From Deltaproteobacteria bacterium (lineage in GTDB: Bacteria > Myxococcota > Myxococcia > Myxococcales > 40CM-4-68-19): a stretch of 64,000 nt of DNA. Below the pieces are notes generated by a model. The model was not told the DNA's origin, did not search any database, and saw only the letters and a list, made by a program, of their open reading frames with translations. Numbering within the stretch: the first letter of the stretch is position 1; each line of letters starts with the position of its first letter. Positions 1-8,833 of this stretch are shown here, one piece after another. The DNA is taken from contig VBKI01000050.1 in NCBI GenBank assembly GCA_005879535.1, positions 1 to 64,000 of the forward strand, written 5' to 3'. The position numbers and the translations under genes are program-made.

Positions 1-250
1 CGGCAATGACGCCCTCGAAGCCGGTTGGCGTACTCATACCCTGCGAGAAGAGCAGACCGGTGGCGCTCGTGAACGTGCCCGTGCCGTCGACGATTTGGTC
101 GATCTCGAAGAAGCTGCCTTCCGCGGAGTCGAGGACGCCCTTGTCATGAATCGTGAGGGCACCATTCGGCGTGGTGATGACCAGATCCCCCTCATACTGG
201 AGCAGGTTGTCAGAATCACCGGGTTGGAGGTTCAGCAGAGCGAATCTCGT
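1..250 (-). pseudogene. C-terminal part of a secreted-type protein, 5' end missing, runs off the left edge
   Basis: Reading the minus strand from about position 250 down to 1 gives one uninterrupted frame with protein-like composition. It contains the segments QPGDSDNLLQYEGDLVITT, GSFFEIDQIVDGTGTFTSAT and GFEGVIA. Alternating hydrophobic and polar residues plus the GTGTFTSATG and GFEG turns resemble small secreted beta-barrel proteins whose family I cannot name. No start codon exists in this frame: upstream the frame enters DNA homologous to a DUF222 gene on the other strand and meets a stop near 345. The beginning of the gene therefore seems to have been lost at a rearrangement close to position 250-260. 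The 3' end lies outside the window. It could instead be an intact gene whose start is obscured by a frameshift. Confidence 0.4.
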
Positions 251-259
251 GGGCCCCCC

Positions 260-505
260 GCCAGCACCGCCCAGAAGACGGCCCGCTTCGCCCGAGGCTC
301 CGGAATAGCCCGGTGCTCCGCGAGGCCGTCCGGGGTAGCGAGGTCACCGTCCGGCAGGCCGAGGCGGTACTGCCGGTCGCTCGGGGCGAAGCAGAAGCGT
401 TCTGGGTGGCGCGAGCGCGGAAAGGGGAGACCGTTCGTCGGCTCAAAGCTGCAGTGAACCATCCCGGCGGTTGCGACCCCGACGAAGACGAGGAGTGGCA
501 TCGGC
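260..505 (+). pseudogene. Remnant of a DUF222/HNH endonuclease gene
   Basis: This stretch is clearly homologous at DNA and protein level to the middle of the DUF222 domain of the gene at 4550-6201 (its bases about 4811-5047). The shared peptides are STAQK-ARFAR in one frame, then, after a one-base loss around 296-313, REAVR-SEV-VRQAEAVLPVARG, WVARARK and DP-EDE-W in the next frame. One extra codon (R-K-G-E-T instead of R-K-E-T) is an in-frame difference. There is no start, no HNH half and no matching end, so it is a dead fragment. Its left edge abuts the unrelated minus-strand fragment that ends near 250. Confidence 0.75.
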
Positions 506-666
506 TGCTCCGCAGTAGGGCCCGTCACTCTCGATGTCCGCGCGGTGCTCAGATGCGCCACCATCGTGCCGCGCACGCACGAGACCATCGTACGCCCGAC
601 CGGTGACGGCAGTCGAGACCGAGTGACTGCACCCGGCGGCGTTCCTCACGGCGTCGAGCCAACCGA

Positions 667-2823
667 TCAGTACGCGGCTGGAGCTGTCACCGTGAGTATC
701 GCGGACCTCGAGCTGCCGTTGAAAGACGCCGAGATCGTCACTGGCATGGTGGAGGTCACCGGACCCGCGCTGATCGGAAAGGTCACACTCGTCTCACCCC
801 AAGGCACTTGAACGCTGCCGTTCGCCACGACGGCGGGATTGCTGCTCGAGTAGGATACGACCAGCGGCGGGTTCGCCGGGGCCGCCCCGTTGAGGGTCAC
901 GGTGACAGACGACGAAACGTTGCTGCCGCCGGGAATGGTGCTCGGATTCAGCGTCACTGACCTGATTCCGGTCGGCGGGGGCGTCACGATGATGATTGCG
1001 GACGTCGTCAAGTACTCGTCGTTGAGCATCCTCACTTGAGCGGTGATCATAATCGGAGTGTCGGTGGTCACCGCCCTGGTCGTAATCATGAAGTCGATGC
1101 CATACGTTCCAAAGGTCGAACCGTACCCTGGGACGTCAGCGACTGCCGGGTTGCTGCTCGAGAGCCAGAGGGGGACGAGCTGGTAAAATGGCGCACCGAC
1201 AACTCGTACGTTTCCCTGCGAGGGAGTTCCACCTGCGACGGCGTGACGGAGGGTCAACTCGAGGTGCGTCGGTTCGTACACCCAGGCGTGAGCGTGTCTG
1301 ACAGCGTCACCGAGGGTGGCGGATACGTCGATCGCGGTAACCGTGGTCACTCTGTGGGTCGAAACGGTGAAGGTCGCTCTTGTATCTCCCGCGGGCACCG
1401 TCGCTGTCGGGGGTACGGTGCCGATATCAGCGGGCGTGATCGAAAGCGCGATCGTGGCCCCACCTGCCGGTGCCGGCTGCGCGAGCGTGACCCACCCGGT
1501 GGCCGGCGTTCCACCATTCACGTCCGGCACGACGACGGACGCGAGCAACGAGTGCTGAAAGAGACCGGTAAGGCTCCAGCTCGCGCCTCCGTCCGTGCTC
1601 TTGAGAACCCCGCCGCTCGTTCCCGCATAGAGGCTCGACGGCGTCTTGGGGTCGATCGAAATGGCGCGGATATAGTCATCCAGGCCAAAGGCGCGGAGTC
1701 TGTCGGTCAACCCGCTGTTGACCGGGTTGAACGTGCCTCCGGCGTCCGTGCTTTTGAAGACGCCCGAAGAGTCCGGAGCCGGGGTCCAGAACCACGATTG
1801 CGGGTCCCACGTTGACGCGACGGCATAAAGGGTGGCTGGATTTACGGGATCGACGGCGAGTGCCGAGATCGTGGTGGCGGACCAGTAGTTGTCTCCCCAC
1901 AGCCCCGTGCCGTACCAGGTCGCGCCATCGTCCGGGCTCGCATAGAGCCCGTAGGTCGCGAGACCTGCGTAGGTGGCGCCATTGCCCGGCGCGATGGCCA
2001 ACACCTCGACAGCGTCGGCAAAGACGCTCGAGTCGGCCAACAGCACCCAGCTCCCGCCGCCGTCGACGCTCTTGTACATTTCTCCCCAACCCATTTCAGG
2101 CGATGCCCCCCACGCACCTGCATAGAGGGTGCTGGGGGTCAGAGGATCGATCGCGACTGACCGAACCTGACCGGACGTCTGTTCGTTCGACAGGGAGGTG
2201 TCCCAGGTCGCGGCTCCGTCGGTGCTCTTCAGGAGCCCGCCGCGGGGTCCGGCGACCGGCGAACCGCCAGCATCGTCGAGCACGGCATACAGGGTAGTCG
2301 GGGTCACGGGGTCAACGACAAGGCTGCGCACAGGACGGTTGGTCAAACCTGTGTTGCTCCAGGTAGCGCCCGAGTCCGTGCTCTTGAACACGCCTCCGGT
2401 CGCCGACGGATCAGTGCCCGCGGCATCGGGGCCATACCGGGAGGTGCCGACATAGACCGTGCCCGGGGTAACCGGGTTTATCGCCAGCGTCGTGACGCGA
2501 GCATCCGCTGCTCGGCTGGACGTCCAATTCGCGGCCCCATCGGTGCTCTTGAAGACGCGACCGTCGTCTGTTCCTGCGTACAGGGTGCTCGGAGTGAGCG
2601 GATCGATTGCCAACGCCTGGACGGGAGGAATACCAGGCGAATCAGTCGAGGCAGCCGGCGATTTTGCTCGCCGCGTCGCGAGGACTGCTCGTGGCTCAGC
2701 CGCTTTCCCGCATGAGAACGACGCTGGAATCGTCGCCAGCAAGCAAAGGCGTACCGCCAGGGCAAAGCGAGCGCTGCGCAGCGTCAGTACACCAATGGCA
2801 CTGCTCGACGTGATGCGTCGCAT
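667..2823 (-). CDS. Exported Asp-box (BNR/sialidase-like) beta-propeller protein with C-terminal Ig-like repeats
   Basis: About 718 residues. The start at 2823 is preceded by GAGG five bases away and opens a signal sequence ending LLATIPASFSC, so it may be a lipoprotein with Cys at about residue 30. The N-terminal two-thirds carries at least seven Asp-box motifs (S-x-D-x-G-x-x-W type: STDGAANW, STDSGATW, STDGAATW, SVDGGGSW, SPDDGATW, STDAGGTF, STDGGASW). Each belongs to a blade that opens with a variant of IDPLTPSTLYAGT. Such proteins form 6-8-bladed propellers (the 'exo-alpha-sialidase/VPS10-like' annotation class), but the motif is structural and does not prove glycosidase activity. The last ~270 residues form about three Ig-like repeats rich in SSNPAV and VPxGxTSxTF phrases, typical of surface proteins. 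A carbohydrate- or surface-binding role is an inference. Confidence 0.8.
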   Translation of the reverse strand: MRRITSSSAIGVLTLRSARFALAVRLCLLATIPASFSCGKAAEPRAVLATRRAKSPAASTDSPGIPPVQALAIDPLTPSTLYAGTDDGRVFKSTDGAANWTSSRAADARVTTLAINPVTPGTVYVGTSRYGPDAAGTDPSATGGVFKSTDSGATWSNTGLTNRPVRSLVVDPVTPTTLYAVLDDAGGSPVAGPRGGLLKSTDGAATWDTSLSNEQTSGQVRSVAIDPLTPSTLYAGAWGASPEMGWGEMYKSVDGGGSWVLLADSSVFADAVEVLAIAPGNGATYAGLATYGLYASPDDGATWYGTGLWGDNYWSATTISALAVDPVNPATLYAVASTWDPQSWFWTPAPDSSGVFKSTDAGGTFNPVNSGLTDRLRAFGLDDYIRAISIDPKTPSSLYAGTSGGVLKSTDGGASWSLTGLFQHSLLASVVVPDVNGGTPATGWVTLAQPAPAGGATIALSITPADIGTVPPTATVPAGDTRATFTVSTHRVTTVTAIDVSATLGDAVRHAHAWVYEPTHLELTLRHAVAGGTPSQGNVRVVGAPFYQLVPLWLSSSNPAVADVPGYGSTFGTYGIDFMITTRAVTTDTPIMITAQVRMLNDEYLTTSAIIIVTPPPTGIRSVTLNPSTIPGGSNVSSSVTVTLNGAAPANPPLVVSYSSSNPAVVANGSVQVPWGETSVTFPISAGPVTSTMPVTISASFNGSSRSAILTVTAPAAY

Positions 2824-3647
2824 CGAAGACCTCGCGGGAGTCGATCGAATCCTGGCTGGCATGTGCCGGGTGCGTGCGGATCCGTACCAGGCTGCATTGG
2901 CGCACCAGCAATCGCCGGGCCATTGCAGCGGTATCAGCTGAGCTCGAAATGAGTGCGCCGGGTTCGGGGTTGCGCTACCGCGGCGCCGCTGTGGCGCCCC
3001 CGGCTCGAGGCAGGCGTCGATCGAGTTCGATGGCCCGAGCAGTGGAGTGAAGCTTTCCGCCATCGTGGCTCCACGGCCATGCAATCCAGAGAGCGATTTC
3101 CGCGATACCCACCCGCCCCGGAGGTGCTCTCCATGCCGGCAATGCAATCCGAAAGCTCGTGCCGCCGTAGCGCTCCCGCGGGAGAGCGAGGAGCCTTCGC
3201 AATGACGGTGCTTACTCCGACGAAGGTACGAACCGCAAGACCGCATGCGTTATGAGCGCTTGGCCCGCCTTTTCGCGAGTTTCGCTCCACAATCGTCATC
3301 GCGATCAGGCTCGCAGCACACTTTACCGATTGAAAGGTCCGGAGAATCGCTCGCGGCATCAGTGGCGGCGGATGTCCCCGGCGGTGACGACGCCCGTGCT
3401 TGCAGTGAGCTGGTGCGTGAAGTTGGCGCGGATGAGTCGCCGCTTGCTCGGGTTCTCGGCGCCGTTGTCGGGCCCCGCGGTGGAAAGGGTCGAAGGCCAC
3501 CTGGAACAGATCGCCGAGGTTGCGGGGCGCTCATGAGCTCCTCCTCCGTTGTGCGCGCTGCGCTTATCCACGCTGGCGGGATGGCGGCAAGGCACTGCTC
3601 GCGCGCTCTTGTCCGTCGCACGACCGGGCTCGCCCGCCGTGCATCGC
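2824..3647 (+). other. Gene-poor stretch, no supported gene
   Basis: About 820 bases between two diverging genes. Open frames here are short, overlap one another on both strands, are rich in Arg/Ser/Pro and have no convincing start or family resemblance. The segment presumably holds the promoters of both flanking genes, but I could not pick out -35/-10 pairs. A degenerate direct repeat lies inside it (3069-3156). A minus-strand frame near 3360-3500 (ending TASTGVVTAGDIRRH) looks slightly protein-like but has no start and no recognisable relatives. Confidence 0.5.
3069..3156. repeat. Degenerate direct repeat, two units of 26-28 bases
   Basis: The unit at 3069-3094 (CTCCACGGCCATGCAATCC, then AGAGAGC) recurs at 3129-3156 (CTCCATGCCGGCAATGCAATCC in essence, then GAAAGC). 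Both share CTCCA, a CCGG-like middle, the exact block ATGCAATCC and an AGC end. The spacing is about 60 bases. They lie in the gene-free stretch and could be eroded copies of a dispersed intergenic element or paired regulatory sites. Confidence 0.35.
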
Positions 3648-4490
3648 ATGGGCGCTGCATTCATCAGGTCACGTGGGGAGTGGTTTCAGCTGCTGCTCGT
3701 CTCCTGCGCGTTGGCGTCTGCAGCGCGGTCGGCGCCCGCTGCGGCGAAGGACTTCGACGTCCCCCTCTCCGGCCACGGTCACATCCGCAGCTTCATGTAC
3801 TTCGACTGGGGCCCCGATAACTGGATCGACACCTTCATCGGCCTCGAGTCCGAGCTTCTCCGGTACAAGCGCTCCTTCCTCGTTTTCCGCTTCGAGAACG
3901 AGACCGACATGGGACGGGGCGCCGACCCGAAGATGATCTTCGACCCCAACCGCGGCCGGTGGACCTTCGGGGTTGGCGCCAGGACGGAGCTGCAGAAGCA
4001 TTTCCTCGAGCTGCTGGTCCGGCATGACTGCCATCACGGCATCGACCGGTGGTGGCCGGGACAGGATTACAAGATGACGTCGGCTGGGCTCGCCTTCGGG
4101 ACGCTCGCATACCTCCAGAAGTACCGGTACCCGGGCGACGTCGACGGAGGCGCGTCGCTCCCTCTGGGGCTTGCATACTTCGTGATGCCCACCTTCTACC
4201 TGCCGCGCGGCGACCCCTGGCAGCGCCAGCCCTATCTGATCAGGCTGGAGGCGAACACGCGGATCGACATCTTCCGCTGGAGCCGGCTTGGGCTGGGACT
4301 CGAATCAGCAAACGTCCTCTACTGGAGCGACAAGGGCCAGCTGCAGCGATCCCACGCGCTGAACCTCGACATGTTCCTCTATGGCGACCACGCGGCCCTG
4401 CTCCTGTTCGCCGGCTGGTGGCCTTACGACAATCAGGTCTTCCGGAATCGGGCCGGTAAGATCGTGTCCGGACTCGAGATTTCGTTCTAG
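3648..4490 (+). CDS. Exported beta-barrel-like protein of unknown function
   Basis: About 280 residues. The ATG at 3648 is chosen because it opens a signal peptide (hydrophobic core LLLVSCALASAA, then ARSAPAAA before the mature KDFDVPL). An in-frame ATG lies 99 bases upstream but would bury this signal. The mature part alternates aromatic and polar residues (FMYFDWGPDNW, FLVFRFENET, LLLFAGWWPYDN) and ends in Phe (GLEISF), all typical of an outer-membrane beta-barrel. A His/Asp-rich patch (VRHDCHHGIDRWW) sits in the middle. I do not recognise a named family. Codon use matches the neighbouring chromosomal genes. Confidence 0.65.
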   Translation: MGAAFIRSRGEWFQLLLVSCALASAARSAPAAAKDFDVPLSGHGHIRSFMYFDWGPDNWIDTFIGLESELLRYKRSFLVFRFENETDMGRGADPKMIFDPNRGRWTFGVGARTELQKHFLELLVRHDCHHGIDRWWPGQDYKMTSAGLAFGTLAYLQKYRYPGDVDGGASLPLGLAYFVMPTFYLPRGDPWQRQPYLIRLEANTRIDIFRWSRLGLGLESANVLYWSDKGQLQRSHALNLDMFLYGDHAALLLFAGWWPYDNQVFRNRAGKIVSGLEISF

Positions 4491-4549
4491 GCGCTGAAGG
4501 CGTCGGGCCCGTGGACTTGAATGTCAGAGGGTCCTGCTATCCAGAAAGA

Positions 4550-6201
4550 ATGAGCGAAGCGCCTGTCGATCCACCCAACCCCCGCCTGGCGGCGCTGGCC
4601 AAAGCCGCGGCGATGCTCCAGTGGCCCATCCTCCGCGTCCGGGACGAGGCCGTCGGCGTTCTCCTTGCGAAAGCCATCGACTCCGTCCTGGCCAGCGTCT
4701 CCCGCGGCCGCGGCGCCCTGGATATCGCCATCGGCGAACACCTCGACGTCCTCGGGACCGGCGACCGCGTCAGCGTCGGCGACTACGCCCGCGAAATGCT
4801 GGGAATCCGCGCCAGCACCGCCCAGAAGATGGCCCGATTCGCGCGCCGGCTCCGGGACTGCCCGCTGCTGGCCGAGGCCGTCCGGAGCGGGGAGGTCAGC
4901 GTGCGGCAGGCGGAGGCGGTGCTGCCGGTCGCCCGGGGTGAGGCCGAAGCGGATTGGGTGGCGCGGGCACGGAAGGAGACGGTCCGCGCGCTCCAGGCTG
5001 CGGTGAAGGATCCCAGCGGTCGCGACCCCGAGGAGGACGAGCAGTGGGACCGGGTCTGCATCGACATTCCGGCCGCAGGGCGGCAGCGCTTCGATGAAGC
5101 CATCGCGCTCGCCGGCAAGGCCCTCGGCGCCAACGTGCCGAAGTGGGAACGGCTCGTGGTGCTCTGCCAGGAATGCATCGGGGCGCATGCGACGCCCGAC
5201 GGCGAGGCCTCTCCGACCCGGTGCCGGCCGTGCCCGTCGACGACTGGATGGAGCCGGCGAAGAAATGGCTCGAGGAGCAGAGCGCGCGGTGGGCGGCGCT
5301 CATGCAGGTGAGTCCGGTGGCGGTCTGGGAGCCCATTCCCGATGTGCATGCCGATGCGCATGGGCTTCATGAGCAGCTGCGGCGGCTCGCCAGCCAGCGC
5401 GACGACTGGGACGGGCTCTTCGGCCATCTCGCGATGCTTTTGCAGAGGACGCAGGCCTGGCGCCTTCTCGGATTCGCGTCCTTCGGCCACTACTGCGATG
5501 AGCGGCTGGGGATGTCGGAGCGCGCGGTCCAGCAGCGCGCGTCGCTCGAGCGCCGCCTCTATGACCTGCCCTCGCTCCGCCAGGCCATGTGCGAGCGGCG
5601 GGTGTCGTACGAGAAGGCGCGGATCATCGCCCGTTACGCCGACGCAGGGTCATTGGACACCTGGATCGAGCGCGCCGGACGGATGAGCTGCGTCGCGCTC
5701 AGGGCCGCGCTGCAGGGCGAAGAGGAGGCGCAGATGTGCGCGCGGGGCAATGTCGAGATCGTGGTCCCCAGGCACATTCGCGGGCTGCTAGCCATGGCCT
5801 TTCACGCCGTTCGCAACGCCGCTGGGCAGTGGATTTCGCCCGGCGAATGCCTCGTGCGCATCGCCGAGCACTTCCTGGAGGTCTGGAAAGCCGCCTTGGA
5901 GGAGCCGAATACGGCCCGGAAGCGCGTCCTCGAGCGGGATCTCGGCTTGTGCCAGGTCTGGGGGTGTACTCGCGCAGCGGTGCACGTCCACCACATCCAG
6001 TTCCGCTCCGCAGGCGGCTCCGACGATCCAACGAACCTCGTCAGCCTCTGCGCCGCCCACCACCTGCAATGCGTGCACAACGGGTGGATCCGCGTCCGCG
6101 GCAAGGCACCCGATGGGCTCTACTGGGAGCTCGGGGTCCGCCCGGGAAGGGCGCCGCTCGTGGTCGTCGAGCCGGCAGCTGCCTCCGCGGAGACGAGGTG
6201 A
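4550..6201 (+). pseudogene. DUF222/HNH endonuclease gene interrupted by a frameshift
   Basis: Two frames together encode one recognisable protein of about 550 residues. The first (ATG 4550, MSEAPVDPP) carries the helical DUF222 region with STAQKMARFARRL and RQAEAVLPVARG. The second, one base earlier in phase, begins around PAVPVDDWMEPAKKW near 5220 and runs to 6201. It ends in an HNH nuclease module: RKRVLERDLGLCQ, the pair VHVHHIQF, then DDPTNLVSLCAAHH, i.e. the H-N-H metal finger is intact. Restoring a single base in about 5206-5222 would rejoin the frames. The family is common in actinobacteria and myxobacteria and its cellular role is not established. As written, the protein would stop 25-30 residues after the shift and lack the nuclease. 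The 3' end overlaps the opposing EIIC gene by 82 bases. Confidence 0.8.
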
Positions 6202-7359
6202 CGATCGTATCGGCGGACGAATGGCCACCAGATGATCAACGCGATGACCAGGTTCACGAGCTGCAACACCAGCGCCTTTAGATCGCCGCCGCTGCTCAGG
6301 TACCAGCGTCCACACCACCTCGATGTACGGTGGCCGCACGGCGCCGAAATGCATCGCGCACCACGAGATGACGGCCAGGATGACCGGCGCGGCGATGAAG
6401 GGCGGCGCGAGCTTGCCGTTCATCACCACCGGGGCGCCGAAGAGGAGCGGCTCGTTGATGTTGAAGACGGCGGGAACGATTCCGGCCTCGCCCACCAGCC
6501 GGAGCTGCTTCGAGCGCGCGAAGAGCAAGAGGATGGCAAAGGCGAGCGTCGTCCCCGACCCGCCCTGCCAGATGAACCAGATGAAGAACTCCTGTGTGAA
6601 CACGTGCGGGGGAGCGTGGCCGGCGCTGGCGGCGGTCATGTTCTCCGCCAGTGCCGCCAGCCAGAGGGGGCGCACCGCCGCAAGCACCGCGATGCCGTGG
6701 ACGCCGATGAGCCAGAGCGCGCTGTCGATGAGGACGACGATCACCACCGCGTACAGCGAATCGCCCCCGCGCAGCAGCGGCCGGAAGAGCGCCGCGATGC
6801 CGCCCGCCAGGTCGATGCCCAGCACGTGCACGACGAACCAGACCAGCACGACGCAGGTCACGCTGGGCAGCAGCGCCGCGAAGCTGCGCACCACCACGTC
6901 GGGCGCGCCGCCGCTCAGCTTGATTCCCCACTTCCGCTGCTGGAAGGCATGCAGGACTTCCACCGCGAAGATGGCTCCCGCGAAGGCCGGGAAGAGTCCG
7001 GCCGCGCCGAGAGCCGCCATCGACAGCATCTTGTTCACCGGGTACTGCGCGACGAGCAGGACGGCGAGCGCCGTGGTGGCGCCTGCGACGGGATCGCTCT
7101 CCCGCCGCCGCGACAGGGATAAGGCGGTGGCCACGCAGGCGTAGATGGAGACCAGCCCGGCGCAGGCCTGATACCCGGAGAGCAACGTCGAAGGCGCCGG
7201 CAAGAACCGGGACAGCGCCGGCCAAGGCGGCTGCGCCAGGAGGAGAAAGAGGCTGCCGAGGAGGATGAGCGGCAGGCTTCCGACCACGCCGTCGCGCACC
7301 GCCATCAAGTGCGGTTGCTTTCCCAGCGCGGTGCCGAGAGCGTGGAGCCGTTCCCGCAC
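6120..7359 (-). pseudogene. PTS EIIC permease (lactose/cellobiose family) with a C-terminal frameshift
   Basis: From a GTG at 7359 the first ~351 residues read as a typical sugar-PTS membrane subunit: RDGVVGSLPLILLGSLFLLL at the start, many hydrophobic segments, the active-site-region phrase FNINEPLLFGAPVVMN, and PPYIEVVWT near the end. After T351 (about position 6307) the frame departs into Arg-rich sequence. In the neighbouring frame the expected last helix reappears (WYLSSGGDLKALVLQLVNL, then IIWWPFVRRYDRHL), ending at a stop at 6120. Compared with family members as I recall them, roughly PAPxGA is missing, suggesting an out-of-frame deletion of about 17 bases. No EIIA, EIIB or HPr gene lies nearby, so the permease is an orphan. 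In the intact family it imports and helps phosphorylate beta-glucosides or chitobiose. Confidence 0.75.
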
Positions 7360-7433
7360 CCGTGCATTGTCGTGTGCGAAAGGCCTTTGCGCCAGTTTGA
7401 CACGCCGCGGTGCGCGCGCTAACTGCGCCCTCC

Positions 7434-8833
7434 ATGACGACGGTCGTGATGCCGCAGCTCGGCGAATCGGTCATGGAAGGCACGGTGGTCCGCTGGATCG
7501 CGCGGCCGGGTCAGAAGGTGGAGCGCGACGAGCCGCTGGTGGAGATCGCCACCGACAAGGCGAACACCGAGATTCCCTCGCCGAGCGCGGGCGTGCTGGT
7601 GGAGCAGCTCGCGAAGGAAGGGGCGGTGGTCACGGTGGGCGGGGCGCTGGCGCGACTCGACGAAGCAGGGGCCGCCGCCGCCGCTGCGGCGCCTCAGGCG
7701 AAGCCGGCGCCTAAGGCTGCCTCTCCCGCTGCGCCTTCCGGGGCCGCCACGGCGGAAGCCGATGCCGACGCAAACGGCGTCCGCGCCACGCCGGTCGGAC
7801 GCAACGTCGCGCAGGAGCACGGGTTGGATCTGAGCAAGGTGCCGGGATCTGGCGCGGGCGGCCGGGTGATGAAGTCCGACGTCACCACGTATCTGGAGAA
7901 GGGCGCCACCTCCTCCCAGCAGTCCGAGCTGCAGCCGCCTTTGAGCACGTTCCCCGGCCAGAAGGCGCCCACCGCGCCCCCGCCGCCATACGCGCAGCCG
8001 TATTCCCAGCCGCCGATCGCGCCGGTGTACTCGCAGCCCCCGCCGCCCAGCTTCGGGCCGGGTTACCAGGGATTCGGGCCCATCGCGATCACGCTGCGCG
8101 CGTACAAGCCGCCGCGGTACACGCCGAAGGAAGGCGACCAGGTGGTGCCGTTCGACCAGCGCCGGCGCCTCATCGCCGAGCACATGGTCTACAGCAAGGC
8201 CACGAGCCCGCACGTACCCTGCACGGCGGAAGTGGACATGACCAACCTGACCCGGCTGCGAGGGGAGTGGAAGCGGGCCAAGGAGACCGGAGGCAAGGCG
8301 CCCAGCTTCCTGGTCGGCGTCTGCCGCGCCACGGTGCAGGCCCTGGCCGAATTTCCCCGGCTGAACGCGGTGGTGCAGGACGAGAGCGTCATCCTGCGCA
8401 AGGACGTGAACCTGGGCGTCGCGGTGGAAACGGAGAAGGGGCTTTTGGTTCCGGTGATCCGCAAGGCCAACGAGCTCAGCGTCCTCGGTCTGGCGCGCGC
8501 CATCGACGACCTCGCCGCCCGCGGTCGCACCGGCAAGGTGACGGCCGACGAGCTCTCCGGCGGGTCGTTCACCGTCTCCAATCCGGGGCTGAAGGGAAAC
8601 CTCTTCGGCGCCGCCATCATCAACCAGCCGCAGGTCGGCATCCTGCGCATGGGCGAGATCGTCAAGCGGGCGGTGGTGCGCGAGCGCGACGGCGAGGACG
8701 CCATCGTCATCCGCTCGATGATGTACCTGACGCTCTCGTACGATCACCGCGTCATCTGATCGACGGCGTGACGGGGAACGGGTTCCTGCACCGCGTCCGC
8801 GAGCTGATCGAGGAAGCGAAGTTCGAGCTGTAG
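7434..8833 (+). pseudogene. 2-oxoacid dehydrogenase E2 (dihydrolipoamide acyltransferase) with a frame lesion in the catalytic motif
   Basis: Start ATG 7434 (MTTVVMPQLGESVMEGTVVR), as usual for lipoyl domains; an in-frame upstream start would add eight atypical residues. Order: lipoyl domain (residues ~1-75, lipoyl-lysine in EIATDKANTEI), Ala/Pro linker, peripheral-subunit-binding domain (VRATPVGRNVAQEHGLDLSK), a long Pro/Gln/Tyr-rich linker, and the catalytic acyltransferase domain. The catalytic segment reads SYDHRVI and then hits TGA at 8757. Removing five bases (TGATC, 8757-8761) restores DGVTGNGFLHRVREL to a stop at 8833. The motif DHRxxDG is therefore split: the catalytic His is kept but Asp-Gly and the last ~23 residues are lost. 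No E1 or E3 gene adjoins it. It may be a real null allele or a sequence error. The substrate class (pyruvate, oxoglutarate or branched-chain) cannot be told. Confidence 0.8.

Follow-up and report, generated by a model that had tools for sequence, protein, structure and literature searches.

The frames of three consecutive genes in the window are broken, as had been claimed from the sequence alone. The breaks in the PTS EIIC gene and the E2 acyltransferase gene, recognised by comparison with intact relatives, are likely to be faulty joins of the draft assembly, while that in the HNH endonuclease-family gene, recognised by a change of frame, is plausibly real decay within a lineage-specific insertion. 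In the organism itself, EIIC and E2 are probably undamaged.

The window comprises the first 64 kb of an 87.6-kb contig (C50), in a draft genome of 5.16 Mb in 118 contigs whose closest relatives with names are bins of uncultured Deltaproteobacteria and Myxococcales. The comparison genomes include a congener (G001) and a member of another family of the same order (G015). Genome-wide rates were taken from a 1.03-Mb sample, mostly contig starts, in which 18 N runs of irregular lengths, odd-length gaps included, mark the genome as a scaffolded draft. Positions 2501-7500 of contig C65 consist of exactly 5000 N, compared with short irregular gaps elsewhere, and may represent withheld sequence rather than a scaffold gap.

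Three interrupted genes

The HNH endonuclease-family gene (approximately 4550 to 6201, plus strand) lies in lineage-specific accessory DNA (1 to 6180, the right edge being approximate), which also holds an HNH-family fragment, a BNR-type ORF and an orphan ORF. The gene is read in frame +2 up to approximately 5207 and from there to 6201 in frame +1, and each half aligns collinearly with intact copies. One missing base near 5210 had been proposed; the frame change agrees with that position, but the lesion sits in a poorly conserved linker where the exact indel cannot be fixed. The C-terminal part contains an HNH domain (PF01844, 24 bits versus a cut-off of 21.4), and the N-terminal part has no Pfam match. 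Residues 88-187 of the N-terminal half resemble the C-terminal half with about 32% identity, forming an internal repeat in the family. Identity as an IscB RNA-guided endonuclease was rejected, as only the HNH stretch matches, with 37 bits versus a curated cut-off of 175, and a search for the gene on plasmids gave no match.

The HNH family is multi-copy in the source genome. Copies on contigs C12 and C13, and one in the relative G008, are also frameshifted; open frames are found in the copy on C112 and in one G010 copy. The fragment in the accessory DNA, reported originally as a dead HNH gene at 260-505, spans 256 to 504 on the plus strand and shows 80% DNA identity to 4807-5053. Because other copies in this multi-copy family are broken, the HNH lesion may be real, in a dispensable gene that is often broken anyway.

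The EIIC gene (6120 to 7359, minus strand), recognised by its PF02378 domain, may be of the lactose/cellobiose family. Its frame changes after the residues WTL, at approximately 6304, where 17 bases are absent relative to G004, which matches the deficit of about 17 bases suspected near 6306. The frame past the lesion (YLSSGGDLKALVLQLVNLVIALIIWWPFVRRYDR; WWPFVRRYDR) agrees with the C-termini of relatives. Scored without this C-terminal tail, the protein reaches 217 bits against TIGR00410, a little under the cut-off of 236.

The 2-oxoacid dehydrogenase E2 acyltransferase gene (7437 to 8833, plus strand) contains five surplus bases at approximately 8756, between DHRVI and DG of the DHRVIDG motif, relative to all six relatives compared; the original prediction had placed five extra bases at 8757. 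Alignment to these relatives shows that the frame downstream of the lesion is kept to the stop, and the lipoyl, E3-binding and catalytic domains (PF00364, PF02817 and PF00198) all score above their cut-offs. The extra bases resemble a second allele, with GTC and GTG both present among relatives, though such a match often arises by chance. Contigs of five relatives (G002, G004, G007, G010 and G011) end within the E2 gene or a few hundred bases from it, which suggests that assembly is difficult around E2.

Frameshift candidates elsewhere in the genome

Between 8.8 and 64 kb of the window no gene lesion was detected with a codon-usage frameshift HMM, which recovered 123 of 150 simulated single-base indels (82% sensitivity) and misses about one-fifth of indels. 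The statement that no genes are broken elsewhere is thus valid for this part of the window, but not for the genome, where conserved genes of further contigs carry similar lesions. The 1.03-Mb sample contains 38 strong frameshift candidates, of which 34 are located away from N runs. These 34 stand beside two in-frame stop candidates, compared with three frameshift and two stop candidates in 373 kb of the congener G001. The number 34 is an upper bound, as domain searches show many of the candidates to be adjacent genes run together. Two complete neighbouring genes account for the candidates at tldD/pmbA, livH/livM-like, thioesterase/phosphotransferase and dehydrogenase/hydrolase genes, and a complete gene plus its neighbour for those at priA and IMPDH, all of which are likely false positives.

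Other candidates are lesions in conserved genes. Of the two clpX genes, one contains a clean tandem duplication of 8 bp (+8). The gltB gene, which is single-copy in the source genome, has lost about 63 bp, a speE-like gene lacks 31 bp compared with its own paralogue, and one further gene has two surplus bases. These indels are multi-base and non-homopolymer, of the same kind as the lesions in EIIC and E2. Near-tandem duplication was considered as a mark common to the lesions and rejected, since only clpX stands out and a match such as that in E2 is common by chance. A candidate lesion in a histidine kinase gene is located at position 72359 of C50, beyond the window and 75 bp from an N gap, and a candidate in ftsK counts for less because it lies approximately 70 bp from an N gap. 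Candidates are weakly enriched toward contig ends, and farther than 1 kb from an end the enrichment is no longer significant. Mapping of more G001 contigs onto the sample aligned 76 kb and gave few new comparisons. A gene with a small indel in the source genome (C12:1581) is also one in which G004 contigs end.

Origin of the lesions

Decay is expected to yield stops as well as indels, together with relaxed selection. EIIC and E2 are conserved neighbours both within the family and outside it. Their alignment to related genomes, the check proposed originally, reveals intact orthologues within the genus and the family. The frame-breaking lesions stand where orthologues are intact, and in the same alignments no stops were found in the conserved frames of either gene outside the lesions. 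The dN/dS of EIIC is 0.18, equal to the value between intact relatives, and that of E2 is 0.15-0.16 within the genus versus 0.13-0.17 between intact relatives, with no excess on the source-genome branch for either gene in tests that are blind to very recent loss. Elsewhere in the genome, similar indels occur in conserved genes with no accompanying excess of stops. We infer faulty joins in preference to decay, because frameshifts are in excess and stops are not, and because dN/dS is as in intact orthologues. On joining, 17 bases would have dropped out at one junction, in EIIC, and a few bases would have been left in excess at the other, in E2, while the lineage-specific insertion adjoining EIIC would carry a dispensable HNH copy, for which real decay is plausible.

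Of the two explanations offered originally, a locally bad assembly appears to apply to EIIC and E2, except that it is not local, as similar indels occur genome-wide. A decaying accessory segment fits what lies left of approximately 6.18 kb, together with the HNH gene, but not EIIC and E2, which are conserved neighbours with no relaxed selection. Some observations weigh against faulty joins. No N run or other mark is present at the three lesion sites, the enrichment toward contig ends is weak, and the true frameshift rate is lower than the 34 candidates imply, many of these being fusions of adjacent genes.

In addition, three lesions within 4.3 kb still form a cluster. By a rough Poisson estimate, the raw candidate density predicts 0.14 lesions per 4.3 kb and about half a cluster of three in the genome as a whole; one lesion per 100 kb would give approximately 0.02 such clusters. 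The HNH gene is probably to be counted apart from EIIC and E2 in this cluster. The earlier argument, that random errors would be spread evenly, does not hold, because faulty joins fall at few junctions. As part of the explanation by faulty joins, the clustering is likely coincidental, or reflects local assembly difficulty near a contig end, rather than a single decaying segment.

Real recent decay would mean that, after a fresh lineage-specific insertion of accessory DNA between nuoI and EIIC, the HNH, EIIC and E2 genes were rapidly inactivated in the source lineage. The insertion bordering EIIC is indeed lineage-specific, other HNH-family sequences (the copies on C12 and C13, one G008 copy and the 256-504 fragment) are likewise broken, and very recent loss would be invisible to the selection tests. 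Such a course of events is nevertheless unlikely, given that EIIC and E2 show no relaxed selection, that the genome has no excess of nonsense changes, and that lesions of the same types are found in housekeeping genes such as the single-copy gltB.

The junction with EIIC

The accessory DNA stands in place of the nuoI neighbourhood that adjoins EIIC in G001, G004 and G015. The block beyond EIIC in these three genomes is putatively the nuo operon, named from its nuoI-like ferredoxin sequence. In the source genome the nuo block reaches the end of contig C69 and continues for approximately 300 bp at the start of C21 (1-320). Past nuoI, C21 runs into polysaccharide-type genes, and past EIIC the window runs into HNH and lineage-specific orphan DNA. 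The junction falls inside the last EIIC codons, so that the 3′ ends of the EIIC and HNH genes overlap. No target-site duplication longer than 7-mers was found at the insertion edges. In the stretches retrieved from G008, G009 and G011 there is no nuoI past EIIC; the nuoI-EIIC junction seems labile. The junction at approximately 6.18 kb may stem from a single large insertion or from a rearrangement.

Within the accessory segment, a large ORF on the minus strand (667-3246) contains Sortilin-Vps10/BNR-type repeats, and only 1427-2607 of it is coding according to the HMM. No match to the ORF at 3729-4487 was found among 15 relatives.

A chimeric join, in which the contig left of approximately 6.18 kb would come from another genome site or another organism and nuoI would still follow EIIC, would account for the scattering over C69, C21 and C50 of a neighbourhood that three relatives share, G015 of another family among them, but is improbable. 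Past nuoI, C21 likewise enters DNA without homology, which is what a real insertion or rearrangement predicts; the G008, G009 and G011 stretches have no nuoI after EIIC; further contigs of the source genome carry HNH relatives; and the junction coincides with none of the three lesions.

Comparison with known systems

If the EIIC and E2 lesions are faulty joins, inferring gene loss from the source genome would be mistaken here and at further loci, clpX and gltB among them. For other draft genomes, the number of frameshift candidates per stop candidate, set against that of a congener, offers a cheap check. The observation itself looks ordinary: two apparently working genes that bad joins probably damaged, and an often-broken nuclease gene.

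Spurious pseudogenes arising from assembly have been documented (Cooley and Wright 2024, PMC11017572). Unlike those artefactual pseudogenes, the source genome shows an excess of frameshifts but not of internal stops. The likeness lies in apparent pseudogenes where relatives are intact, in raised number across one assembly. The HNH gene, in turn, resembles the multi-copy HNH endonuclease-family genes in its C-terminal PF01844 domain, its internal repeat and the occurrence of several intact and broken copies per genome.
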